From Candidatus Dadabacteria bacterium (GTDB lineage: Bacteria; Bdellovibrionota_C; UBA2361; J046), in NCBI GenBank assembly GCA_003696425.1, contig RFHI01000226.1, forward strand, positions 1 to 35,119: DNA of 35,119 nucleotides. Reading direction: 5' to 3'. Of this stretch, positions 1,489 to 30,021 are shown one piece after another; positions within the stretch are counted from its first letter, which is position 1, and each line of letters opens with the position of its first letter. The position numbers and the translations under genes are program-made. The notes beneath the pieces were generated by a model. It was not told where the DNA came from. It did not search any database and was given only the letters and a program-made list of their open reading frames with translations.

Positions 1489-2607
1489 GTGAATATCAGG
1501 CAGTTAAAAATAGCGATTCTCGGCACTCGTGGAATACCGGCCCGTTACGGTGGGTTTGAAACTTTTGCTGAAGAACTTTCCCAAAGGCTTGTTCTTAAAG
1601 GACATCAGGTCTCGGTATATGCGAGGAAAAGGTTTTTTGAAAAGAAGAATTCACCTGGAGAGTACGCTGGAGTTCATATCCGTTATACCGCCACTATTAT
1701 GCATAAGTACTTTGAAACACCTGTGCATGCTGTTACGTCATTGATAGATGTTTTATTTAAACCGGCCGACGTTATTCTGCTTTGCAATGCAGCCAATGCC
1801 CCCTTTGCCTGGATCACAGCTTTTGCCGGCATGCCTGTTGTCATTAATGTTGATGGGATTGAACGTAAGCGGGCTAAATGGAATCTCTTTGGCAGACTCT
1901 GGTATATGCTGGGTGAGCGATGTGCAGTCTGGTTCTCTAAGCAGATCATTGCGGATGCTGAGGTTATTGCTGAGTATTACCGCAACAGATATAAAGCCAG
2001 TCCTGTTGTAATAGCATATGGCGCAACGGCAAAAAGGATTCCGGCTGGTGAAACTCTGGCACGCTTTAATTTAAAGGCCAGAAATTATATTCTTTATGTC
2101 AGTCGGCTAGAGCCTGAAAATAACGCGTTGGGGGTAATTGAAGCTTACAACTCAATAGATACTGATGTTCCGCTTGTAATTGTGGGGGATGCACCTTATG
2201 CTGATCAGTATAAGAAACTGTTAAAAGAAAAAGCCTCTGACAAAGTGGTGTTTACCGGTTTTCAGTTTGGTGAGGCTTATCACGAGTTGCAGTCTAATGC
2301 GCTGATTTATATCCAGGCTACTGAAGTAGGGGGTACACACCCTGCACTTGTTGAAGCAATGGCGCACGGCAATTGTATAATTGCCAATGGCACTCCGGAA
2401 AATATGGAAGTTCTGGCTGATTGTGGTGAATACTATAAGAAAAACAATTTTAAGGAACTGGCAGTAAAACTTAAGAACTTATTATCTGACGGTCGGCGGC
2501 GTACTGAACTGTCAGAAAAGGCACGTAAGCGGGCTGAAGGTGTTTATAACTGGGATAAGGTTACTGAAGAGTATTTAAGACTTTTTAAAAGTGTTTTGAA
2601 CAAGTGA
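1489..2607 (+). CDS. GT4 glycosyltransferase with DUF1972 N-terminal domain (rhamnosyltransferase-like)
   Basis: A 372-residue protein starting at GTG. The N-terminal stretch ILGTRGIPARYGGFETFAEE (residues 10-29) is the hallmark of the DUF1972 type of GT-B glycosyltransferase, which includes capsule/EPS rhamnosyltransferases of the Cps2T/WchF type. The C-terminal Rossmann half carries the donor-binding region (YVSRLEPENN near 203-212) and the GT4 E-x7-E signature in the form TEVGGTHPALVEAMAHG (near 281-297). It probably acts at the cytoplasmic membrane face on a lipid-linked oligosaccharide. The acceptor and sugar cannot be deduced. It opens the polysaccharide cluster but is separated from the next gene by a 332-base gap. 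The ribosome binding site is weak. Confidence 0.85.
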   Translation: MNIRQLKIAILGTRGIPARYGGFETFAEELSQRLVLKGHQVSVYARKRFFEKKNSPGEYAGVHIRYTATIMHKYFETPVHAVTSLIDVLFKPADVILLCNAANAPFAWITAFAGMPVVINVDGIERKRAKWNLFGRLWYMLGERCAVWFSKQIIADAEVIAEYYRNRYKASPVVIAYGATAKRIPAGETLARFNLKARNYILYVSRLEPENNALGVIEAYNSIDTDVPLVIVGDAPYADQYKKLLKEKASDKVVFTGFQFGEAYHELQSNALIYIQATEVGGTHPALVEAMAHGNCIIANGTPENMEVLADCGEYYKKNNFKELAVKLKNLLSDGRRRTELSEKARKRAEGVYNWDKVTEEYLRLFKSVLNK

Positions 2608-2939
2608 GCAGGAGCCTTAAATTGATAACTTCTGCCTGAGCATTTCAGGTTAACGGTCTTGTCGGCAAATCCGAATCTGGCGGCCCCTTTAGTTACAATC
2701 CTGTTTCAGCTGCTTTTGAGAGTGAAACCGGCTTGATTTGCTTAACGCCAGCCCCTCGCTTCTTGCGGATACAGGGACAGGATTTGGAATGATACATCCA
2801 TTTAAAAGAGCCGTGACCCCCGGCGTGCCGCTATTATACTGAAAATACGGGGTTTTTAAACCATCATGTAAATGTGCTTAAAATTACTGCTGTGTTAGAA
2901 TGAGGTTTTGTAAATCGTGTGTGACCTTAGTGAGGAGCA
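2608..2939 (+). other. 332-base intergenic region inside the polysaccharide cluster
   Basis: No convincing ORF was found on either strand and no U-tailed terminator after the upstream gene. Two promoter-like elements point to the next gene. One is GTGACC (2813-2818), 16 bases, TATACT (2835-2840). The other is an extended -10 at 2893-2901, listed separately. The length and the absence of coding suggest that the downstream glycosyltransferase-to-epimerase genes form their own transcription unit. Confidence 0.5.
2893..2901 (+). promoter_or_regulatory. Candidate extended -10 promoter for the glycosyltransferase operon
   Basis: TGTTAGAAT fits the extended -10 form TG-N-TATAAT with 5 of 6 matches in the hexamer. 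There is no good -35 element 16-18 bases upstream, as is usual for extended -10 promoters. Transcription would start near 2908, giving a leader of about 32 bases with a GAGG ribosome binding site before the ATG at 2940. Confidence 0.4.
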
Positions 2940-3950
2940 ATGAAAGGAATTTCTGTAGTTGTGCCGGTATATAACGAGGCTGAGAATGTCGAAGCCTGTT
3001 ATCGCGAAATCAAGCAGGTGCTCGAATCCACCGGCGAGCAGTATGAAATAATCTTTGTTAATGACGGCTCAACCGACAGAACTATGGATCGCCTTATGCT
3101 CGCCGGAAGTGGCGATCCGCATCTTACTGTAATTGAATTCCGCCGTAATTTTGGTCAGACCGCCGCTATGGCTGCCGGGCTTGAAAACAGCCGCTATGAT
3201 ACGGTTGTCACCATGGACGGTGATATGCAAAACGATCCGGCTGAAATCCCTGCCATGATAAAAAAATTAAGAGAAGGTTATGATCTCGTAGCCGGCTGGC
3301 GCAAGAACAGGCAGGATAAACTGTTAAGCCGCAAGATCCCAAGCAGGATTGCTAACTGGATCATCTCAAAATCTACCAGCGTCAAGTTGCACGATTACGG
3401 ATGCAGCCTGAAAGTTATGACAGGAGATGTTGCCAGGGGGATTAAGCTTTACGGAGAGATGCATCGCTTCATTCCGGCACTGGCTGCTGAACTTGGTGCA
3501 AAAATTTATGAAATGCCGGTTAATCACCGTGCAAGAAAATTCGGTCAGTCCAAATACGGTATATCGCGTACTATTCGGGTAATTCTTGATCTTATCACTG
3601 TCAAATTTCTGTTGGGCTATTCCAAGCGGCCAATTCATCTCTTTGGAAGTCTCGGTTTTCTAACCGGCGGGACAGGTTTTGCCATCCTGCTGTATATGAG
3701 CTACCAGAAGTTCTTTCTGGATATTCCAATGGGAAACCGGCCGCTGATGGCGCTCGGCGTGATGCTGGTCATTATCGGGCTGCAGTTTCTGGTATTTGGT
3801 CTTTTGGCTGAGATTCTTGCCCGCACCTATTATGAATCTCAGGACAAACGTACTTATGTAATTAGAAATATCTTTCACGGTCAAGAACGTAAGCTGCGGC
3901 CGGTAGCAGTGCCGGGACGTGAGTCTCAGCGGCGGCGCGTAGTAAACTAA
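2940..3950 (+). CDS. Membrane GT2 glycosyltransferase, ArnC/GtrB/DPM1-like
   Basis: A 336-residue protein with a good Shine-Dalgarno (GTGAGGAGC) just before its ATG. The N-terminal GT-A fold begins ISVVVPVYNEAENVE (residues 4-18). It carries NDGSTDRT (near 41-48) and the metal-binding acidic motif TMDGDMQNDP (near 92-101). Two hydrophobic segments at about 235-260 and 270-300 form the C-terminal membrane hairpin typical of polyprenyl-phosphate sugar transferases. The family moves a sugar from a nucleotide donor to undecaprenyl or dolichyl phosphate at the inner membrane. Here it could make a lipid-linked donor for side-group addition to the polysaccharide. No ArnA/ArnT-type partner is nearby, so an aminoarabinose role is not supported. 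Confidence 0.88.
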   Translation: MKGISVVVPVYNEAENVEACYREIKQVLESTGEQYEIIFVNDGSTDRTMDRLMLAGSGDPHLTVIEFRRNFGQTAAMAAGLENSRYDTVVTMDGDMQNDPAEIPAMIKKLREGYDLVAGWRKNRQDKLLSRKIPSRIANWIISKSTSVKLHDYGCSLKVMTGDVARGIKLYGEMHRFIPALAAELGAKIYEMPVNHRARKFGQSKYGISRTIRVILDLITVKFLLGYSKRPIHLFGSLGFLTGGTGFAILLYMSYQKFFLDIPMGNRPLMALGVMLVIIGLQFLVFGLLAEILARTYYESQDKRTYVIRNIFHGQERKLRPVAVPGRESQRRRVVN

Positions 3951-3959
3951 AGTAGTTCC

Positions 3960-5159
3960 ATGTCTATTCTTCTTAACAAAGCAGACCAGAGCTTTGATAA
4001 AGCTGTGGCACCTCCTTTGAGGGTATTGATTGACGGTCGGATGCTTGGGACAAGCGGCCTCGGCATTTACACCGAAAATCTTATTCGGGGTCTGCTCTCA
4101 AGTGCTGAGGTAAATATAACAGTCCTTTTACGTTCTGACGATTTTAATGAATATGACTGGGCGGGCAGTGTACAGTTTTTACGTGATAGTGCCAGGCTGT
4201 ACTCATATGATGAGCTCTTTAAGCTGGGACTTAGAATAGATCAGTCCCAGTTCGATCTTTATCACTACCCGCACTATACCCTGCCATTTAATATCAGGAT
4301 ACCGGCAGTAATAACTGTTCATGATCTTATCCATATAACCCATCCGGAAAGGCGCTATTACCCGCTGCTATCTAAAGCAATCCTCAGATCTGCTCTTAAA
4401 AGGGCTAGCCGGATTATAAGCGTTAGCCAGTCAACAGTGGACCAGATTGCAAGATTTACCGGCAGTAACCAGAGAATCATGAATAAGGTAAGACTTGTAC
4501 CGAATGTAATTGATCCTTACTTTTTGTCTGAGCAGAATGCCGGCACACAACGACAAGCGGTTAAGGGTAAGTATTTGCTGAGTATAGTTTCAAATACAAA
4601 GCCGCATAAAGGCATAAACGATTTGTTGGATGCATTCGATCTCTTTTTAGATAAATTGTCGCTGTTAGCTGCCCAGGATAATCGATATAAATCATTTCTC
4701 GACCTTAAGCTCGTATTAGCCGGAGCAGGTGCACGTGAGCTTGTGGAACTGGAAAAACTCCTTAATAAGGTCGGCTCAATTAAACGTGTCTGCGTACTTG
4801 GACAGGTAAGACGCAGCGAACTCAAGGCGCTTTATAAGGGGGCTATGGCTCTGGTAGTTCCCTCTCTGGCTGAAGGGTTTTGCCTGCCGGTACTTGAGGC
4901 GCAGTCTCAGGGTACGCCTGTTATAGCCAGGCCCGTTCCGGCTGTTTGTGAGCTTTTGACAGCTCACGATATAGGTTGTGAAGATTTCAGTATTACGAAA
5001 CTGTGCGAAGCAATGATAATGTTTGTAAAACGTGTAATTGAGAGCCCTGATACTGATATTCATAAAGTTAACCGTGAGCATTTGCGCTGTTTTGATCGTG
5101 ATGCTCTGGCTCGTGTAGTTTGTGATGTTTACCGTGAAGCCAGGGGAGAACAGAAGTGA
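3960..5159 (+). CDS. GT4 family glycosyltransferase
   Basis: A 399-residue GT-B fold protein starting at ATG, nine bases after the preceding stop. Residues 21-46 (RVLIDGRMLGTSGLGIYTEN and following) are the usual N-terminal glycine-rich loop of GT4 mannosyltransferase-like enzymes. TVHDLIH (near 119-125) and the C-terminal EGFCLPVLEAQSQGTPV (E-x7-E, near 307-323) complete the family signature. It is predicted to extend a lipid-linked saccharide from a nucleotide sugar donor in the cytoplasm; specificity is unknown. Its stop overlaps the next GTG start by four bases, implying translational coupling. Confidence 0.85.
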   Translation: MSILLNKADQSFDKAVAPPLRVLIDGRMLGTSGLGIYTENLIRGLLSSAEVNITVLLRSDDFNEYDWAGSVQFLRDSARLYSYDELFKLGLRIDQSQFDLYHYPHYTLPFNIRIPAVITVHDLIHITHPERRYYPLLSKAILRSALKRASRIISVSQSTVDQIARFTGSNQRIMNKVRLVPNVIDPYFLSEQNAGTQRQAVKGKYLLSIVSNTKPHKGINDLLDAFDLFLDKLSLLAAQDNRYKSFLDLKLVLAGAGARELVELEKLLNKVGSIKRVCVLGQVRRSELKALYKGAMALVVPSLAEGFCLPVLEAQSQGTPVIARPVPAVCELLTAHDIGCEDFSITKLCEAMIMFVKRVIESPDTDIHKVNREHLRCFDRDALARVVCDVYREARGEQK

Positions 5160-6313
5160 GAGTCGCACTGGTACATGATTGGCTTACCGGTATGCGTGGT
5201 GGTGAGCGCTGCCTTAAGTTTTTTTTAAAGGTCTATCCTGAAGCAGATATTTATACCCTGGTTCATGTAGCGGGTTCTACTGATCGGCTGATTGACAGAC
5301 GTGTTTGCGGGACCTCAGCGCTGAATAAGCTACCAGGAATAGGACGTTACTACAGGCTGTTTTTGCCGCTTTACCCGTCAGCGATATCTACTTTTGATTT
5401 CAGTGACTACGATCTGGTTATATCGTTAAGCCATGCAGCTGCAAAAAATATTCATGTTCCAGAAAGCGTGCCGCATCTGTGTTACTGCTTTACACCTATG
5501 CGCTATATCTGGGATCAGGCTAACAGCTACTTTGGAGCATTAACTCTGCCGCTCTGGCCTGTAATTAAAGGACTAAGAAATTGGGATAAGCGAGGGGCAG
5601 AAGGAGTGACCCGCTTTGCAGCAATAAGTAAACTGGTTAAGGCAAGGATTAGAAAGTTTTATGGCCGTCGGGCTGAGATAATATATCCTCCGGTTGATAC
5701 ATCCTGGATTAGCCCTGCTCACTCAGAAAAGGGGGAGGCTTATCTTTATGCTGGTGCGCTTGTGCCCTATAAGCGTCCGGACCTGGTAGTAGAGGTTTTT
5801 AATGACCTGAAAAAAGAGCTATGGATAGCCGGAAGCGGGCCAATGGAGAAAAAGCTTCGCCGAATGGCCGGTCCTAACATTAAATTTCTTGGAAGGGTGT
5901 CAGACATACGCCTGGCTGAGATTTATGCCGCCTGTCGGGCGCTTATTTTTCCGGGGAAAGAAGATTTTGGAATGATTCCGGTTGAATGCATGGCAGCCGG
6001 AAGAGCTGTTATCGGCCTTTTTAGCGGCGGCCTGCGTGAGACTGTTGATGGTGTAAGATATTGGGATAGTTCAGATATTGCAAAAGAGGCAGCAAGCGGG
6101 GTATTTTTTCGTAAGAGCCGTGAGCAGGCAAAAGAGCTTAAGAACGCCATCGGGTTTTTTGAAAATAATCAGGAACTTTTTAGCCCGGAGGTATGTATCA
6201 GACAGGCTAAAAAATTTAGCCCTGAGAGATTTCTGGTAGAATGGGGTAAGTTTGTGGAACATTCTGTTGGGATAGGCTCAGGGAGTGATATAAGGCAGGC
6301 AGGCAATGCTTAA
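5156..6313 (+). CDS. GT4 family glycosyltransferase, WbaZ-like
   Basis: A 385-residue protein starting at GTG inside the preceding gene's stop (GTGA overlap). The N-terminus VALVHDWLTGMRGGERCL (residues 3-20) and CYCFTPMRYIWD (near 106-117) are typical of the WbaZ/RfaG-like mannosyltransferase group. The donor site includes YAGALVPYKRPDLVVE (near 198-213) and FPGKEDFGMIPVECMAAG (near 264-281), which holds the GT4 E-x7-E signature. It is one of four glycosyltransferases in this cluster. Its 3' end overlaps the next gene by eight bases. Confidence 0.87.
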   Translation: MRVALVHDWLTGMRGGERCLKFFLKVYPEADIYTLVHVAGSTDRLIDRRVCGTSALNKLPGIGRYYRLFLPLYPSAISTFDFSDYDLVISLSHAAAKNIHVPESVPHLCYCFTPMRYIWDQANSYFGALTLPLWPVIKGLRNWDKRGAEGVTRFAAISKLVKARIRKFYGRRAEIIYPPVDTSWISPAHSEKGEAYLYAGALVPYKRPDLVVEVFNDLKKELWIAGSGPMEKKLRRMAGPNIKFLGRVSDIRLAEIYAACRALIFPGKEDFGMIPVECMAAGRAVIGLFSGGLRETVDGVRYWDSSDIAKEAASGVFFRKSREQAKELKNAIGFFENNQELFSPEVCIRQAKKFSPERFLVEWGKFVEHSVGIGSGSDIRQAGNA

Positions 6314-7709
6314 ACAGAAACGCCAGCTTTTTGAATTTATGTTTATGGCCAGCGACTTGCTGGTTGTAACAGTTGCCTGGTTTCTGGCTTACTGGTTCAG
6401 GTTTCTCTCTGGTGTTGTTCCAATAGACAAAGGTGTGCCGCCCTTTTCGCACTATCTTTCGATGGTGCTCTTTATCTGGTTAATCTGGGCGTTTGTCTTT
6501 AGGCGCATGGGACTTTACCGCCCGATGCGGGGGGTACGGCGGGTACGTGAAATCTGGATGCTGGTAAATGCCAATGTGCTTGCGCTTTTGTTATTTATCT
6601 CTGTTACCTATCTGTTCCGTGAGAAGAGTATCCCATATTCACGACTGGTGTTTGTGTATTTTGGACTTTTGGCAACAGCCTTTACAGTAATCCAGAGATC
6701 TTTTCTGCGATTTGTTTTAAGAGAGTTGCGGCGAAAGGGGTATAACCTCAGGTATCTTCTAATTGTTGGTGCCGGCAAGGTTGCTGCTGACATTGCCACG
6801 CGGGTAAGGCTTCACCGTGAACTTGGCATCCAGCTTCTGGGGTGTCTTTCCAGAACAGGTAAGGAGAAAAAGGGTCCCAGGGGGATTCCAGTCATAGGAT
6901 CATATGATGATCTGCCGGAGATTTTGGATAAGATGGATATCGATCAGGTGGTAGTAGCGCTCCCGTTGGAAGACAATAACAGATTGCCGGATATTATGTC
7001 TATGATTGGCGATTCTCTTGTTGATGTCAGGATCGTGCCTGATATCTATCAGTTTGTAACACTTGGTGGCCACATTGAAGAGTTTGAGGGGCTGCCGGTA
7101 ATTGCTGTCCGTTCCTCTCCGCTTGAAGGACCCGGGCTTATTATTAAAAGAATCTGTGATCTGGTGCTGGCGTCAGTGCTGTTGGTACTGCTCTCTCCAT
7201 TAATGGTCATTATAGCGGTATTAGTTAAGTTAACTTCGCGGGGACCGGTTTTTTACCGGCAGGAGCGTGTTAGTTACGACGGCAGCCGGTTTAATATTTA
7301 CAAGTTTCGTACAATGTATGTGGATGCGGAAAAATCAGGGCCTGGTTGGACCAGGGCTAATGATAGTCGGGTAACTCCATTTGGAAGGTTCTTACGTCAT
7401 TACAATCTCGATGAGCTCCCTCAACTATACAACGTTCTACGGGGAGATATGTCGATTGTGGGTCCGCGTCCCGAGAGGCCGGTATTTATTCAGGATTTCC
7501 GCAAAAAAATTCCGCGCTACATGTTGCGTCACAAAGTTCCGGCCGGTATGACCGGTTGGGCCCAGGTTAATGGCTGGCGTGGAGATACATCCATAGATAA
7601 GCGGATAGAATATGACCTTTATTACATAGAAAACTGGTCGCTGCTACTTGACTTTAAAATACTGTGCCTTACCCTTCTTAAGGGCTTCAGAGACAGAAAT
7701 GCCTACTGA
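6306..7709 (+). CDS. Undecaprenyl-phosphate sugar-1-phosphate transferase (WcaJ/WbaP type)
   Basis: A 467-residue polyprenyl glycosylphosphotransferase. The N-terminal third has several hydrophobic segments (about 12-35, 50-67, 88-104, 112-130). They are followed by a CoA-binding-like Rossmann region starting LLIVGAGKVAADIA (near 151-164). The C-terminal catalytic domain starts near residue 281 (KRICDLVLASVLLVLLSP) and includes FYRQERVSYDG, YKFRTMY, LDELPQLYNVLRGDMSIVGP and the PRPERP element with the catalytic acidic residues. It transfers a sugar-1-phosphate, in the best-known members glucose or galactose, to undecaprenyl phosphate, the first committed step of a repeat unit. It overlaps the upstream gene by eight bases, so the sugar transferases are co-translated. 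Confidence 0.92.
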   Translation: MLKQKRQLFEFMFMASDLLVVTVAWFLAYWFRFLSGVVPIDKGVPPFSHYLSMVLFIWLIWAFVFRRMGLYRPMRGVRRVREIWMLVNANVLALLLFISVTYLFREKSIPYSRLVFVYFGLLATAFTVIQRSFLRFVLRELRRKGYNLRYLLIVGAGKVAADIATRVRLHRELGIQLLGCLSRTGKEKKGPRGIPVIGSYDDLPEILDKMDIDQVVVALPLEDNNRLPDIMSMIGDSLVDVRIVPDIYQFVTLGGHIEEFEGLPVIAVRSSPLEGPGLIIKRICDLVLASVLLVLLSPLMVIIAVLVKLTSRGPVFYRQERVSYDGSRFNIYKFRTMYVDAEKSGPGWTRANDSRVTPFGRFLRHYNLDELPQLYNVLRGDMSIVGPRPERPVFIQDFRKKIPRYMLRHKVPAGMTGWAQVNGWRGDTSIDKRIEYDLYYIENWSLLLDFKILCLTLLKGFRDRNAY

Positions 7710-7750
7710 GGAGTGCTGCGCTTAATTTTTATTAATCAGGGAGACAACTA

Positions 7751-9073
7751 ATGAAAATCTGTGTGGTTGGTTCAGGTTATGTTGGTCTGGTTGCAGGAGC
7801 ATGTTTTGCCGAGTCGGGAAATGATGTCATCTGCGTAGATGTGGATCAGGAAAAAATTGAGGCCTTAAAAAAGGGAGTCATTCCGATTTATGAGCCTGGC
7901 CTTGAGGGTCTGGTCACTCGCAATTCCAACGCAGGCCGCTTGCATTTTACCACCGATTTAAGTGAAGGGGTGCAAAAATCAGAGATTATATTTATTGCCG
8001 TGGGCACTCCGCAGGACGAAGACGGTTCAGCAGATCTAACGCATGTTCTCGACGTTGCCAGAGGGATCGGAAAGGCCATGAACGGGCCCAAAATAATAGT
8101 CGATAAATCTACAGTGCCTGTTGGCACTGCAGAGCGGGTTAGAGAAGAGATTGAAAAACTGACTGATTATGAGTTTGAAGTTGTAAGTAACCCCGAGTTT
8201 CTTAAAGAAGGTGCGGCAATCGATGATTTTATGAAACCCGATCGGGTGGTTATCGGGGCGCCCTCGGAGCATTCGGCTAATATCATGCGCGAACTTTACG
8301 CTCCCTTTGTAAGAACCAATAAACCGATCCTGGTAATGGATGTTGTTTCAGCTGAAATGACCAAGTATGCAGCTAATGCCATGCTGGCAGCGCGGGTCTC
8401 TTTTATGAACGAAATCGCAGTACTGTGTGAAAAGACCGGTGCTGACATAGACCAGGTGCGGGTAGGAATTGGGACCGACACCAGAATAGGCATGCCGTTT
8501 TTATTTCCCGGCATAGGTTATGGTGGATCGTGTTTTCCTAAGGATGTTCAGGCATTAATTCGTACCGGCAAGGATTACGGCCTGGAGCTTAAGATACCGA
8601 CAGCTGTAGAGGCCGTTAATTTTGAGCAAAAGAGACTGATTGTAAAAAAAATCTGCGCATACTACGGTACTGAGGATCTCAGTGGCAGAACGTTTGCTGT
8701 CTGGGGTCTGGCTTTTAAACCAAAGACTGATGATGTGCGCGAGGCTCCGGCACTGGTAGTTATAGGTGAGCTTTTAAATCGTGGAGCAACTGTTAAAGCC
8801 TATGACCCTGAGGCTATGGAAACCTTCCGTAATCGCCTCGGAGAAAACGCAAAGGTGACTTACGTAGCGACAAATTATGATGCTTTGGGTGGTGCTGATG
8901 CGCTTGTTATCTGTACTGAGTGGAATGAGTTTAGAAGGCCTGATTTTAACAGGATAAAAGGCTTAATGGAAGCTCCGGTAATCTTTGACGGCCGTAACTT
9001 ATACGGGCTTTCGGAGATGAGAGAAAAAGGCTTTGTGTACCATTCAATTGGCAGGCCGTCTGTTGGTGTTTAA
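7751..9073 (+). CDS. ugd: UDP-glucose 6-dehydrogenase
   Basis: A 440-residue protein, usual length for the family. It starts at ATG after GGGAG. The NAD-binding motif is [20 protein letters not shown] (residues 4-23) with the acidic ribose-binding D30. [11 protein letters not shown] lies at 118-128. The catalytic region holds Lys205 ([12 protein letters not shown]) and the nucleophile Cys261 within [12 protein letters not shown]. The enzyme makes two sequential NAD-dependent oxidations of UDP-glucose to UDP-glucuronate. The next gene is the enzyme that decarboxylates this product, so the two make a short UDP-xylose pathway for the polysaccharide. Confidence 0.96.
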
Positions 9074-9117
9074 AGTGTAATGGGCATTGCTGTTTTGCCC
9101 GTAGAGGATATTTCTTT

Positions 9118-10059
9118 ATGGCCAGAGTGATTGTTACAGGTGGTGCTGGTTTTATCGGCTCGCATCTCTGCGATCGTTTAATTGCTGACGGGCATGACGT
9201 TTTGTGTCTTGATAATTTTTATACTGGTCGCAAAGTTAACATAGCCCACCACCTTGGAAACTCGGCTTTTGAACTGGTGAGGCATGATGTGATCGAGCCG
9301 ATACTGCTTGAAGGAGATCTGGTTTATCACTTAGCCTGTCCGGCCTCTCCAGTCCATTATCAGTTTAATCCTGTAAAAACCATTAAGACTAACGTAATGG
9401 GCACTATTAACATGCTGGGGCTCTGTAAACGAATTAAAGCCAAATTTCTGCTGGCATCGACCTCGGAGGTTTACGGAGATCCGCTCGAACATCCACAATC
9501 GGAGTCCTACTGGGGAAATGTGAATCCGATCGGTCCCAGAAGCTGTTACGATGAAGGTAAGAGAGTTGCGGAAACTCTGGTTGAAAGTTATCGCAACGAA
9601 AACGGGGTTGATACTACTATTGTGCGTATATTTAATACGTACGGCCCCAGAATGCTTTTTGATGATGGTCGTGTGGTCTCTAATTTTATAATTCAGGCTT
9701 TAAAAGGCCAGGATATAACAATCTATGGTGATGGCTCCCAGACCCGTTCTTTTTGTTACATAGACGATCTGGTGGATGGCCTGATATCTGCGATGGATAA
9801 AGAGGGTTTTCACGGACCTGTTAATCTGGGAAATCCTACTGAGATGACAATCAAATCTCTGGCCGAGCTTGTTATAGAACTTACCGGCAGCAGGTCAAAG
9901 CTTGTCTATCGCAAGTTACCGGAGGATGATCCGGCTCGCAGAAGGCCTGACATTAACCTTGCAAAAAAGGAACTGGGCTGGCAACCGGGTGTCGAGTTAA
10001 AGGACGGGCTAATGAAAACCATTAACGATTTTGAAGAACGACTTAAGCAGGAGGGATAA
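9118..10059 (+). CDS. uxs: UDP-glucuronate decarboxylase (UDP-xylose synthase)
   Basis: A 313-residue extended short-chain dehydrogenase. The NAD motif is [11 protein letters not shown] (residues 6-16) with D32. Family-specific stretches are [19 protein letters not shown] (72-90) and the catalytic S/T-x-Y-x3-K set: TSEVYG (115-120) with Y144 and K148 in RSCYDEGKR. This YDEGKR form and the ASPVHYQ element distinguish UDP-xylose synthases from GalE and from dTDP-glucose dehydratases. It oxidises, decarboxylates and re-reduces UDP-glucuronate to UDP-xylose with bound NAD. It follows ugd by 44 bases; that gap holds a small hairpin (GGGCA/TGCCC) before the start. Confidence 0.95.
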
Positions 10060-10983
10060 TTGAATAAAGTTCTTGTTACCGGAGGAGCCGGCTTTATTGG
10101 TTCACATATTGTCGATGCGATGGTCGAGGAGGGGAATTCGGTAGTGGTGATTGATGATCTCTCATCGGGCAGCAGAGATAACCTGCGTGCTGGCGTTGAG
10201 CTGCTTGAGTGGGATGTAAGGTCAGACCAGACACGTGAATATATAGCCAGTGAAGAATTCGACTTCATTATCCATGCCGCTGCACAAATATCTGTGCGCA
10301 TAAGCATGGAAAAACCGCGCTTTGATACAGAAGTTAACGTAGTTGGCCTGATGAATATGCTGGAAGCCTTACGCAATAAACGGCAGCCTCACTTTATTAT
10401 GATTTCAACAGGTGGTGCTATTTATGGAGAGCAGGAACAGTTCCCTGCTGATGAAAACCATCCGATTTTACCTACGAGTGTTTATGGGCTTGCAAAGAGA
10501 GTAAGCGAGCTTTATCTGGACCTGTGGCGGCGTCAGTTCAAGCTCCCTTTTACAGCTTTGAGGCTCTCTAATGTTTATGGTCCCCGGCAGAATCCGCATG
10601 GTGAGGCAGGGGTAGTAGCTATTTTTTCAAAGAAGCTGATAGCCGGAGAAAGACCGCGTATAAACGGTTCCGGTGAACAAACGCGCGATTTTGTTTACGT
10701 AGGAGATGTCGCCGAAGCAGTAAGAAAGGTGGTGGCTGAAAAACCTGCGGGTATATTTAACATTGGTACCGGGAGAGAAACTTCCGTAAATCAGCTATAT
10801 CAGATTATTACCAGGTCACTTGATATGGAGGTTGAACCTGAATATGGGCCTCCGGCTCCCGGCGAACAGATGCGCAGCTGTATTGATCCATCGCTGGCTC
10901 TGAGAACTTTTGGCTGGCAGCCAACTGTTTCGATTGATGATGGCATTAAGCTTACTACTGATTGGTTCAGGCAACAGAGCTAA
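10060..10983 (+). CDS. NAD-dependent sugar-nucleotide epimerase, GalE-like SDR
   Basis: A 307-residue protein starting at TTG directly after the preceding TAA. AGGAGGG just upstream is a strong ribosome binding site and decides this start. The NAD motif [15 protein letters not shown] is at residues 6-20, with D32-D33 for the adenosine ribose. The catalytic residues would be S116/T117 and Y142/K146 (VYGLAK). The overall pattern fits UDP-glucose or UDP-glucuronate 4-epimerases. Being coupled to uxs, it might act on UDP-glucuronate, UDP-xylose or UDP-glucose; the sequence does not decide. Confidence 0.87.
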   Translation: MNKVLVTGGAGFIGSHIVDAMVEEGNSVVVIDDLSSGSRDNLRAGVELLEWDVRSDQTREYIASEEFDFIIHAAAQISVRISMEKPRFDTEVNVVGLMNMLEALRNKRQPHFIMISTGGAIYGEQEQFPADENHPILPTSVYGLAKRVSELYLDLWRRQFKLPFTALRLSNVYGPRQNPHGEAGVVAIFSKKLIAGERPRINGSGEQTRDFVYVGDVAEAVRKVVAEKPAGIFNIGTGRETSVNQLYQIITRSLDMEVEPEYGPPAPGEQMRSCIDPSLALRTFGWQPTVSIDDGIKLTTDWFRQQS

Positions 10984-25380: not shown

Positions 25381-26754
25381 ATGGGTGTAGGAACGAATAT
25401 ATCTGAGAGTGATGCCAGTAGTGTTCGTACTGTTTTGGTAGTTGACGATGAAGAAAGCATTTGCCGTTCACTTGAGCGGGTACTGGCCGATGAGGGTTTT
25501 AAGCCTTTGGTGGCTCATAACGGGGAAGATGCGCTCAGAAAAATTCATGATTATTCTCCAGCGCTGGTACTGCTGGATATTTGGCTTCCGGGAGCTGACG
25601 GGATGGAAACGCTGCGACGTATTAAATCGGAGTATCCTGCTCTGCCGGTCATAATGATTAGTGGTCATGCAACCATTGGAACTGCAGTTACGGCAACTAA
25701 GCTTGGTGCTGTTGATTTTATTGAAAAGCCGTTGGACCTGGACGTGATTTTAGCGTCGGTACGTAAGGCATTGGGGTTGGCAGGAGGCTCGTCTAAGTTA
25801 GAGGAGCCTGAAAGACAAGAGAGGGAGAGCACGGCGACGCGGCTCAGGATCGGAATTGCCGGAGAAGAATTGGATCTTAATCCGATAGCTTTCAGACATA
25901 ACACCCTGCGCGGCAAGGCTGTAAAGCAGCGTACGCTTGCAAGCAGTGCCCTTCTTTACGGGCAGGGGCTTCATACCGGACAAAAGAGTGGCTTGATACT
26001 GGAACCACTTCCGCCTAATTCAGGTATTCATTTTGTTGGCATCTCGGGTGGGACGGTGGTTCCTGCCCACGTTGATTTTGTAGAATCTACAGGATTTGCC
26101 ACAACGGTGAAATTAGGTGAGACGCAGGTCAGTACCATTGAGCACCTGATGTCTGCCCTGCATGTATATCGCATCTCCAATTTACTGGTGAAGTGTAACG
26201 GGGAAATACCTGTAATGGATGGGTCGGCAGTTGAATTTTGCCGCATTATTGAAGATGCCGGGCTTGATGAGCAGGATGGCGAGTGGTATGAGATAGCGCT
26301 GCCTGAAAAGATTGAGGTTGGTGCGGGTAATGAGAAGATCTCAATTGAGCCGGATGAGCGTTTTGTAATTGACTATACTCTTAATTATCCGGAACCGGTA
26401 GGTCAGCAACGGTTTGTTTTCTGTGTTGATGATCCTGAAAGTTACAAACGCGAGATTGCTCCTGCCAGGACCTTTGGCTTTGTACGTGACATTGGCAGGC
26501 TGCAGCAACAGGGCCTGGCGCAGGGGGGGCGTTTTGACAATTTCGTGTTGATTGGAGAGGATGGCGCAATCAATGATAATCTGCGTTTTGAAAACGAACC
26601 GGTCAGACACAAAATTCTTGATGCAATAGGAGATCTGTATTTACTCGGACGGCCAATAAGTGGACGTGTAACGGCGCATCTGACCGGTCATTCAGATAAC
26701 TATGCACTGCTTAACCGGATCTGGCAGGCTGTTAAAGCTTCTGCAGCCCTTTAA
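25381..26754 (+). CDS. lpxC: Receiver domain fused to LpxC (UDP-3-O-acyl-GlcNAc deacetylase)
   Basis: One uninterrupted 457-residue frame, started by ATG after AGGAAG. Residues 17-133 are a CheY-like receiver close to NtrX: D22-D23 (VVDDEE), phosphoacceptor Asp66 (LLDIWLPG), Ser94 (MISGHATI) and Lys116 (IEKP). A linker of about 45 residues with a charged stretch (EEPERQERES) follows. From about 182 (KQRTLASSALLYGQGLHTG) to the end it is a full LpxC. It has STIEHLMSALH (Glu254, His255), IAPARTFGF, FDNFVL, NEPVRHKILDAIGDL (His410, Asp414) and His437 in TGHSDNYALL. Thus three zinc ligands and the catalytic acids are kept. LpxC catalyses the committed deacetylation in lipid A synthesis. No internal start before the LpxC part is apparent, so LpxC is made only as the fusion. 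The stop overlaps the convergent gene. Confidence 0.93.
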   Translation: MGVGTNISESDASSVRTVLVVDDEESICRSLERVLADEGFKPLVAHNGEDALRKIHDYSPALVLLDIWLPGADGMETLRRIKSEYPALPVIMISGHATIGTAVTATKLGAVDFIEKPLDLDVILASVRKALGLAGGSSKLEEPERQERESTATRLRIGIAGEELDLNPIAFRHNTLRGKAVKQRTLASSALLYGQGLHTGQKSGLILEPLPPNSGIHFVGISGGTVVPAHVDFVESTGFATTVKLGETQVSTIEHLMSALHVYRISNLLVKCNGEIPVMDGSAVEFCRIIEDAGLDEQDGEWYEIALPEKIEVGAGNEKISIEPDERFVIDYTLNYPEPVGQQRFVFCVDDPESYKREIAPARTFGFVRDIGRLQQQGLAQGGRFDNFVLIGEDGAINDNLRFENEPVRHKILDAIGDLYLLGRPISGRVTAHLTGHSDNYALLNRIWQAVKASAAL

Positions 26755-27788: not shown

Positions 27789-28808
27789 ATGTTTCGAGTT
27801 TTAGCACGTGACCTGGCAGTAGACCTCGGGACAGCTAATACGCTTATTTACGAAAAGGGAACAGGGGTAGTTTTGGATGAGCCTTCGATTGTTGCTTTAA
27901 AGCAGGATGGTCCCCGTCGGGATATAGTTGCAATTGGTGCTGAAGCCAAGGAAATGCTTGGCCGTACACCGGAGGGAGTAAAAGTCATTCGGCCGATCAG
28001 GACCGGGGTAATTGCTGATTTTGAGGTTGCCGGTCTTATGCTGCGTGAGTTTATAGGCAGGGCCCGTAAGAAAGCCAGAGCCTTATTTAAACCGCGAGTA
28101 ATTGTTGGTGTGCCGAGCGGTATAACTGAAGTAGAAAAAAGAGCCATCCGTGATTCTATTGAAGGGGAGGCACGCGAAGTAAAACTAATAGATGAGGCCA
28201 TGGCTGCCGCAATAGGGTGTGGCCTTCCGGTTACAGAAGCGACTGCCAGTTTGATAGTAGATATAGGCGGGGGCACAACGGATATTGCAGTAATCAGTCT
28301 TAAAGATATAGTTCATTCCGTTTCTGTGAGGCGCGGTGGTGATGCTATGGACGAAGCTATTATAAATCACATGCGTCGTCGTCATCATCTGCTTATTGGG
28401 GAAGCCACTGCTGAGTTGATAAAGAAAACTATTGGCAGTGCTCATTCTGATTACGACAATCAGGAGATGGAGGTGCGTGGCCGCAGTCTTACAAGCGGAT
28501 CTCCGGCGGCACTGGTAGTAACTGGCGAGGAGATAAGGGAAGCCACGGCTGAAGTTGTCAATACAATTTGTGCTTCTATTCGTCAGGCGCTTGAAAATAC
28601 GCCGCCTGAACTTTCAGGGGATATTATTGAAAGCGGCATTATGCTGGCGGGCGGAGGTGCGCTGCTTAAGGGGCTTGATCGGCGGGTGCATGAAGAGCTT
28701 GGCATTGAGGTTAAGGTTGCTGAGGATCCTCTCTGTGCAGTAGTAGAAGGGGCCGGTAAGGTCCTTGACAATACTGAGCTTTATAAAGACGTATGGTTTC
28801 AGGCTTAA
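27789..28808 (+). CDS. mreB: Rod-shape-determining actin homologue MreB
   Basis: A 339-residue protein. The actin-fold phosphate-1 motif DLAVDLGTANTLIY (residues 8-21), EPSIVAL, VIRPIRTGVIADFEVA, the IDEAMAAAIGCGLPV connection and the phosphate-2 motif LIVDIGGGTTDIAVIS are all typical of MreB. The family's SVRRGGDAMDEAIINHMRR and C-terminal GGGALLKGLD adenosine motif are also present. It polymerises under the inner membrane and directs lateral wall synthesis. No mreC or mreD follows; instead a PP2C-type gene starts 16 bases later on the same strand. Confidence 0.97.
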   Translation: MFRVLARDLAVDLGTANTLIYEKGTGVVLDEPSIVALKQDGPRRDIVAIGAEAKEMLGRTPEGVKVIRPIRTGVIADFEVAGLMLREFIGRARKKARALFKPRVIVGVPSGITEVEKRAIRDSIEGEAREVKLIDEAMAAAIGCGLPVTEATASLIVDIGGGTTDIAVISLKDIVHSVSVRRGGDAMDEAIINHMRRRHHLLIGEATAELIKKTIGSAHSDYDNQEMEVRGRSLTSGSPAALVVTGEEIREATAEVVNTICASIRQALENTPPELSGDIIESGIMLAGGGALLKGLDRRVHEELGIEVKVAEDPLCAVVEGAGKVLDNTELYKDVWFQA

Positions 28809-28824
28809 AGGGATATCGAGATTA

Positions 28825-30021
28825 ATGGAGATAAAATCTGCTGCTAAGAGCGATTGTGGAATAAAGCGGGAGAATAACGAAGATAGTATTCTGACGCGAT
28901 CGGATCTTGGGCTGTACATTGTTTGTGATGGTATGGGCGGACATGCCGGTGGTGAACTTGCTTCAAAAATAGCAGTTGAGGTGATTGAAGAGTGTGTAAG
29001 TAATGCGCTCCTTGATGGCGAATTAACTGAGTCGAATGCATCAGCTATTGTAAGTGATGCAATCCAGTCTGCCAGTCGGGAAATATACAACCGTGCGCAG
29101 CTTGAACCTGAATATAGAGGGATGGGTACTACTGCCACAGTGCTGATTTTTTTTAATAATCATGCCGTACTGGGACATGTAGGTGACAGCCGTTGTTATT
29201 TACGCCGTCGTGAAAAGCTTCATCAGCTATCTAATGATCACACTCTTGCAGCTGAGCTTGTAGCGAGTGGTAAGAGTAATTCAGCTGAAGTTAAGAAAAT
29301 GCCGTTTGCTCATGCACTGACCAGGGCAGTAGGAATACAGCCATCTGTAGTTGTTGATACTCTTGTATTTGATCTGATTGATGGTGATACGCTTTTACTC
29401 TGTACGGACGGCTTAATTGAACTGTGTTATGATCAGGAACAGCTCTTTGATTTGATTGGTCAGGAATCAATATCTGGCTTGCCGGAGAAGCTGATTAAAT
29501 TGGCGAATGAGTTGGACGGTTCTGATAATGTCAGTGTAATTGTGCTTAGAGCCTTTGATAGTACCCGCGATGCGGCCAGGGAGCAGGAAGTTGTATTAAA
29601 GATTGATACGCTAAAAGGGCTCTCCTTTTTTAAAGAGCTTGAGCTAGCAGAGTTGTTGCAGATTGTTGAGAGGGTAACGGTACTGCCGGCCGCAGAGGGA
29701 GCTGATTTGGTAAGAGAAGGGGAGCAGGGAGATTCGATGCTGGTTATTTTAAGTGGCAGGGTGGCGGTGTATCATCAGGGGCGTCAGCTTAATACACTGG
29801 AAAGCGGCAATCATTTTGGAGAGATGTCGCTTTTAAGGGAGTCGCCGCGTTCAGCGACTGTTAGGGCGATTGAGCCTTCAATATTGCTTAAGCTTAAGAA
29901 GAATGATTTCCAGGAGATTGTCAGTGGCAACCCCCGACTGGGTGTTAAGCTTTTAGCGGCCTTATCGCGTGAGCTATGCAGTCGTCTTGATCAGGCTAAC
30001 AGGAAAGTTGTTGCAGGGTAA
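28825..30021 (+). CDS. PP2C-type Ser/Thr phosphatase fused to a cyclic-nucleotide-binding domain
   Basis: Start chosen at ATG 28825 (398 residues), because the frame upstream of it overlaps the mreB end and the protein then begins at the usual PP2C start (KSAAKSDCGIKRENNEDS). Residues 1-250 form a PPM/PP2C phosphatase with metal ligands in NNEDS (E19-D20 region), VCDGMGGHAGGE (D35), VGDSR, CTDGL and GSDNVSVIV. From about 260 to 390 a CRP-like cNMP-binding domain follows. Its phosphate-binding cassette is FGEMSLLRESPRSATV, with the conserved Glu and Arg. The protein should be cytoplasmic, removing phosphate from Ser/Thr under control of a nucleotide. No partner kinase is seen. The gene directly follows mreB. 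Confidence 0.88.
   Translation: MEIKSAAKSDCGIKRENNEDSILTRSDLGLYIVCDGMGGHAGGELASKIAVEVIEECVSNALLDGELTESNASAIVSDAIQSASREIYNRAQLEPEYRGMGTTATVLIFFNNHAVLGHVGDSRCYLRRREKLHQLSNDHTLAAELVASGKSNSAEVKKMPFAHALTRAVGIQPSVVVDTLVFDLIDGDTLLLCTDGLIELCYDQEQLFDLIGQESISGLPEKLIKLANELDGSDNVSVIVLRAFDSTRDAAREQEVVLKIDTLKGLSFFKELELAELLQIVERVTVLPAAEGADLVREGEQGDSMLVILSGRVAVYHQGRQLNTLESGNHFGEMSLLRESPRSATVRAIEPSILLKLKKNDFQEIVSGNPRLGVKLLAALSRELCSRLDQANRKVVAG

Follow-up and report, generated by a model that had tools for sequence, protein, structure and literature searches.

The question raised by this locus is whether LpxC, which catalyses the committed step of lipid A synthesis, can be controlled by a membrane sensor kinase through a receiver domain that is part of the same polypeptide chain. 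In the window, which here indicates the whole stretch of 35,119 nucleotides that was analysed, positions 25381-26754 of the plus strand form one open frame (ATG start, stop codon at 26752-26754) encoding a 457-residue protein in which a receiver (REC) and LpxC are joined, as the original prediction had read from the DNA. The evidence reviewed below leads us to propose that an NtrX response regulator would have exchanged its transcription output for LpxC, so that the NtrY kinase would control lipid A synthesis post-translationally through Asp66 of the fused receiver, a reading to which a probability of roughly 70% can be assigned.

Domain architecture and genome context

Pfam searches with the 457-residue protein identified a Response_reg domain at residues 18-127 (PF00072, E 1.9e-28; 25432-25761, plus strand) and an LpxC deacetylase domain at residues 183-448 (PF03331, E 4.3e-82; 25927-26724, plus strand), the latter complete, as it covers positions 1-267 of the 268 of the profile. 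The score with the LpxC equivalog TIGR00325 was 235, to be compared with a cut-off of 187. The residues of an active receiver, namely, the acidic pair D22 and D23, the predicted phosphoacceptor D66 (codon at 25576-25578, plus strand), S94 and K116, and the LpxC residues E254, H255, H410, D414 and H437 are all found where the original prediction had placed them. In an alignment of 60 fusions D23, D66, K116, E254 and H255 are each present in 60/60 sequences, S94 in 59 with a T in the remaining one, and H410, D414 and H437 in 59 out of 59, the 60th sequence being truncated, so that the zinc and catalytic residues are invariant. The two domains are separated by a variable linker at residues 128-182 (25762-25926, plus strand), with an entropy of 3.0-3.3 bits versus 1.4 for LpxC, and the protein terminates with a short C-terminal end (26725-26751, plus strand). 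Neither a sigma-54 AAA+ domain with its GAFTGA loop nor a Fis-type helix-turn-helix DNA-binding domain was detected by the Pfam scan of the window protein. The NCBIfam label of the protein is LpxC and nothing more, which may be the reason why the REC-LpxC architecture went unremarked.

The genome, which amounts to 2.98 Mb in 280 contigs and is 95.8% complete, was found to contain no other LpxC, including the stand-alone copy that the original prediction had considered, so that the fusion is the sole LpxC; LpxK is present along with LpxC, as expected of a genome that encodes lipid A synthesis. Within the window, the fusion gene is preceded by the run rimP-nusA-ylxR-infB-rbfA-DHH-truB-purA and followed by a hydroxyacyl-CoA dehydrogenase gene on the opposite strand and then by mreB, with no adjoining kinase gene. 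Two further features of the same contig may be mentioned. Just past mreB, a 418-residue frame (28765-30018, plus strand) combines a Ser/Thr phosphatase of the PP2C type with a C-terminal cyclic-nucleotide-binding domain, so that here, too, a regulatory domain is fused to an enzyme. At 1489-10980 (plus strand) glycosyltransferases, a sugar transferase and UDP-sugar dehydrogenase/epimerases make up a polysaccharide locus.

Distribution of the fusion

The two-domain order recurs in many lineages. A search of 58 relatives revealed the same ORF across the order and the class of the window at 50-64% identity. An LpxC match was obtained in 40 of the 46 genomes of the class and, among those of good quality, in 20 out of 20, with one match each; the LpxC frame has the length of the fusion except where a contig end cuts the gene. 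The scan of named genomes added fusions from Acidobacteriota, Nitrospinota, Nitrospirota (Thermodesulfovibrionia), Thermodesulfobacteriota (including Desulfomonile), Binatota and 'Deltaproteobacteria' metagenome-assembled genomes (MAGs). Beyond the class of the window, at least five other phyla have scattered members with the fusion, the phylum assignments being the names on the genome records. Of the 23 fusion genomes outside the class, 20 possess no LpxC but the fusion; a second lpxC beside the fusion is present in three Acidobacteriota, which also keep ntrX, and in no genome of the class.

Since essentially every class relative with an uncut gene carries the same two-domain ORF, the fusion is real and is not due to a joining error. 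That the frame may be an assembly error, or that the LpxC part may be made separately from an internal start, for which a TTG codon with a Shine-Dalgarno-like stretch at 25870 could speak, is very improbable, given the identical layout of the frame across many genomes and phyla and the finding that start codons with such a stretch occur in the linker (9/52) no more often than in stretches within LpxC taken as controls (21/156). The latter result does not support a conserved separate LpxC start, and the internal start was rejected; the original prediction had likewise seen no separate start.

A very divergent short REC-LpxC, only 32% identical to the window protein, is encoded directly past a trmD-like gene (L033:3405-4640, plus strand) in a 1.2 Mb genome of the class of the window; with no NtrY match at E 1e-40 in that genome, it would be a receiver without its kinase and a possible exception.

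Descent of the receiver from NtrX

In relatives with a stand-alone LpxC the same-strand neighbourhood lpxC - DUF4390 gene - ntrY - ntrX was found at 11 loci, from Geobacteraceae, Desulfobacteraceae, Syntrophaceae, other deltaproteobacterial MAGs and an acidobacterium. In a careful tree of 45 rows the fused receivers and the NtrX receivers of these operons form one clade with support values of 98/94, and 13 other receivers of the window genome fall outside it. The clade was recovered with a support of 95 in a quick tree of 104 rows, with the divergent L033 sequence falling outside on a very long branch. The nearest other AAA+ regulator of the window genome (L152, 482 residues) was considered as a surviving NtrX and discarded, because its receiver lies outside the NtrX clade; by eye it resembles a regulator of the NtrC type. 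All 53 fused LpxC domains are found on one side of a single branch of the unrooted LpxC tree (support 99), which is compatible with one origin of the fusion.

Further indications came from the linker, which in eight fusions (L032, L057, L058, L060-L064) is 259-333 residues long, versus 25-58 residues in the others, and matches the sigma-54 AAA+ domain of NtrX. In these long fusions the Walker A loop is mostly retained, the GAFTGA loop is lost in 8/8, the acidic pair of Walker B is gone and the Fis-type helix can be discerned in only three of the eight, while the receiver and the enzyme are intact. The eight proteins represent decay stages of a dead NtrX AAA+ domain, that is, a fossil series, and the degenerate AAA+ module between receiver and LpxC indicates that NtrX joined LpxC whole, that its transcription machinery died, and that this machinery was later deleted in most lineages. 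Thus, the receiver, originally described as 'NtrX-like', can be regarded as NtrX-derived on the basis of both the receiver trees and the AAA+ remnants, and its sequence shows that the residues for phosphorylation are intact.

In the three Acidobacteriota with both lpxC forms, G080 (L203), G068 (L204/L205) and G067 (L219), the old lpxC-DUF4390-ntrY-ntrX set is found together with REC-LpxC. This double set looks like acquisition of the fusion by transfer, which is also the likely route of spread for the Acidobacteriota fusions.

The NtrY kinase and the loss of ntrX

A profile search for NtrY gave one strong match in the window genome (E 6e-213, at G000:C157), with NtrY_N, HAMP, PAS, HisKA and HATPase domains. 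The NtrY-like kinase that the original prediction proposed to look for is thus present, on a contig different from that of the fusion and with no regulator gene beside it: a DUF4390 gene lies directly upstream of ntrY, as in the ancestral operon, and no receiver gene was found within 5.8 kb downstream. The original prediction was thus borne out by three of the checks that it had named, on the domain order in other lineages, on a second stand-alone lpxC and on the kinase. The DUF4390 gene is consistently beside ntrY (L070, L072, L119 and L134:8135-8713, minus strand), even where ntrX is gone, and its product may be part of NtrY sensing.

Forty genomes have the fusion as their sole LpxC, 19 from the class of the window and 21 from elsewhere; they include a few class members with fusions cut by contig ends and G043, for which no LpxC was recovered. 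None of the 40 has ntrX adjoining ntrY; in seven ntrY lies directly upstream of the fusion, and in 33 it is without a neighbouring receiver gene. Conversely, ntrX is beside ntrY in 11/11 stand-alone loci and in 3/3 genomes with both lpxC forms (G067, G068 and G080), or 14/14 overall. For four genomes (G064, G073, G068 and G080) the ntrX outcome was forecast before the loci were looked up, and it was as forecast. In principle, the absent ntrX might belong to the part of the 95.8% complete window genome that was not sequenced, yet the pattern spans 40 genomes.

The helix carrying the phosphorylatable His, HEIKNPLTPIQL, is nearly identical between orphan and operon NtrYs. The retention of this helix and the orphan-NtrY pattern are most simply read as a pairing of NtrY with the receiver of the fusion. 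With NtrY on another contig in the class of the window, the pairing of NtrY with the fusion is one that we infer, and, with about 57 receivers in the window genome, another kinase could serve the fused receiver.

Proposed mechanism and alternatives

An ancestral NtrX, encoded in the lpxC-DUF4390-ntrY-ntrX neighbourhood, would have become joined to LpxC, and its AAA+ and DNA-binding parts would have decayed and then been lost, leading to REC-linker-LpxC. NtrY, a membrane kinase with sensor, HAMP and PAS regions, would phosphorylate Asp66 of the fused receiver, and phosphorylation would change the activity, stability or location of LpxC independently of transcription. The original prediction spoke of direct phosphorelay control: direct control is maintained here, while phosphorelay is a loose term, since the expected route is a two-component transfer from NtrY to the receiver. 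The tethered receiver would most likely act through a phospho-dependent contact with the enzyme or through dimerization. The structure model of the fusion (mean pLDDT 83, pTM 0.66) contains neither an ordered linker nor a defined REC-LpxC interface, and the stretch 135-162 of the linker is predicted to be disordered (pLDDT <50). The variability and disorder of the linker, along with the lack of a fixed interface in the model, make a docking or dimerizing tethered receiver more likely than a rigid coupling. As to the sign of the effect, by analogy with the NtrYX repression of lpxC in alphaproteobacteria one may guess that phosphorylation is a brake on lipid A synthesis.

The best surviving alternative, which may be entertained tentatively, is that the receiver phosphorylated by NtrY acts on LpxC stability, by hiding the enzyme from or exposing it to a protease, rather than on catalysis. 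Receivers are known to act as adaptors in regulated proteolysis, RssB being an example. E. coli LpxC is controlled through turnover (PMC12444477). In the E. coli-type enzyme the FtsH degron has the motif LAxxxxxAVLA (PMC12444477). The window protein lacks such a C-terminal motif, its end being GHSDNYALLNRIWQAVKASAAL, and only 20 residues follow the catalytic His; the short C-terminus ending in VKASAAL had been correctly noticed at the outset. The median length of this tail is 17 residues in fused LpxCs versus 42 in 21 stand-alone LpxCs with a comparable motif. The short tail makes an E. coli-type FtsH control by a C-terminal degron unlikely, and turnover control would need another element. Against this possibility, neither a degron nor a protease partner was identified, and no member of the LapB zinc-ribbon family was detected in the window genome, in a search that is weak because the model is short.

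That the receiver may be mainly a docking tag, which takes LpxC to the membrane kinase NtrY with phosphorylation being secondary, is less probable still. A long and variable linker (25-58 residues) would suit a tether, and in Neisseria, Ght is reported to favour LPS synthesis through the positioning of LpxC at the inner membrane (PMC12444477); however, the residues for phosphorylation are all invariant, which is more than docking requires. A vestigial receiver, left over as a passenger of the fusion event, is hard to sustain and was rejected: the AAA+ remnants of the long fusions do indicate that useless parts can linger for some time, but a neutral receiver would decay alike, while D23, D66 and K116 are kept in 60/60 fusions, including the very proteins in which the AAA+ domain decays. 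With control of LpxC by NtrY through D66 as the preferred reading, the fusions probably constitute a widespread response-regulator class of single origin, in which a membrane sensor kinase would directly phosphorylate the enzyme of the committed step towards lipid A, the NtrX output having been swapped for LpxC, with intermediates of the process still living.

Significance

LpxC is an antibiotic target, which makes a natural built-in regulatory domain of practical interest. How bacteria other than E. coli and Pseudomonas set the rate of LPS synthesis is still a largely unsettled matter (PMC12444477). In the fusion the wiring can be read in the protein itself, with one kinase, one receiver and one enzyme, so that direct two-component control of LpxC is reduced to a question for a single in vitro assay. 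Moreover, the fusion arrives at the same connection between NtrYX and lpxC that alphaproteobacteria display, and the series of intermediates provides a rare stepwise record of the conversion of a transcription factor into a regulated metabolic enzyme.

Comparison with known systems

Response regulators with enzymatic outputs, in which REC covalently controls an enzyme, are well known, as in the CheB, PleD, HD-GYP and RsbU types, the outputs of which produce or eliminate signals or modify proteins of signalling. The output of REC-LpxC is, in contrast, the committed step of an essential biosynthetic pathway. With respect to other LpxCs, the window protein has the full domain, with all zinc and catalytic residues, and is the sole copy, but it differs in the N-terminal receiver and in the lack of a C-terminal tail of the FtsH-degron kind.

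The similarity with the NtrY-NtrX system is close, in that the receiver is phylogenetically NtrX, NtrY and its DUF4390 neighbour are kept, and NtrYX in alphaproteobacteria already governs lpxC expression (PMC7240162, PMC12444477). For Rhodobacter and Caulobacter the effect is a repression of lpxC transcription (PMC12444477, PMC7240162); in R. sphaeroides, where lpxC has no NtrX binding site (PMC7240162), the link is therefore indirect. The window protein departs from NtrX in lacking the sigma-54 AAA+ and DNA-binding domains, its output being the enzyme itself. The D. vulgaris response regulator DVU2934, for which lpxC is the only mapped target (PMC3333781), is likewise aimed at lpxC, but it acts on transcription from DNA.

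A review of lipid A regulation from 2025 names FtsH-LapB-YejM, MurA, Lon, Ght and the transcriptional NtrYX/ChvGI systems among the controls of LpxC, and the words 'receiver' and 'fused' are absent from its text (PMC12444477); searches of the open-access literature brought up no description of a receiver-LpxC protein, and absence there is no proof. As in the fusion, LpxC is the controlled point for FtsH-LapB-YejM in E. coli, for activation by MurA in P. aeruginosa and for Ght in Neisseria (PMC12444477). These systems, however, make use of separate partner proteins, whereas in REC-LpxC the signal input lies inside the LpxC chain.
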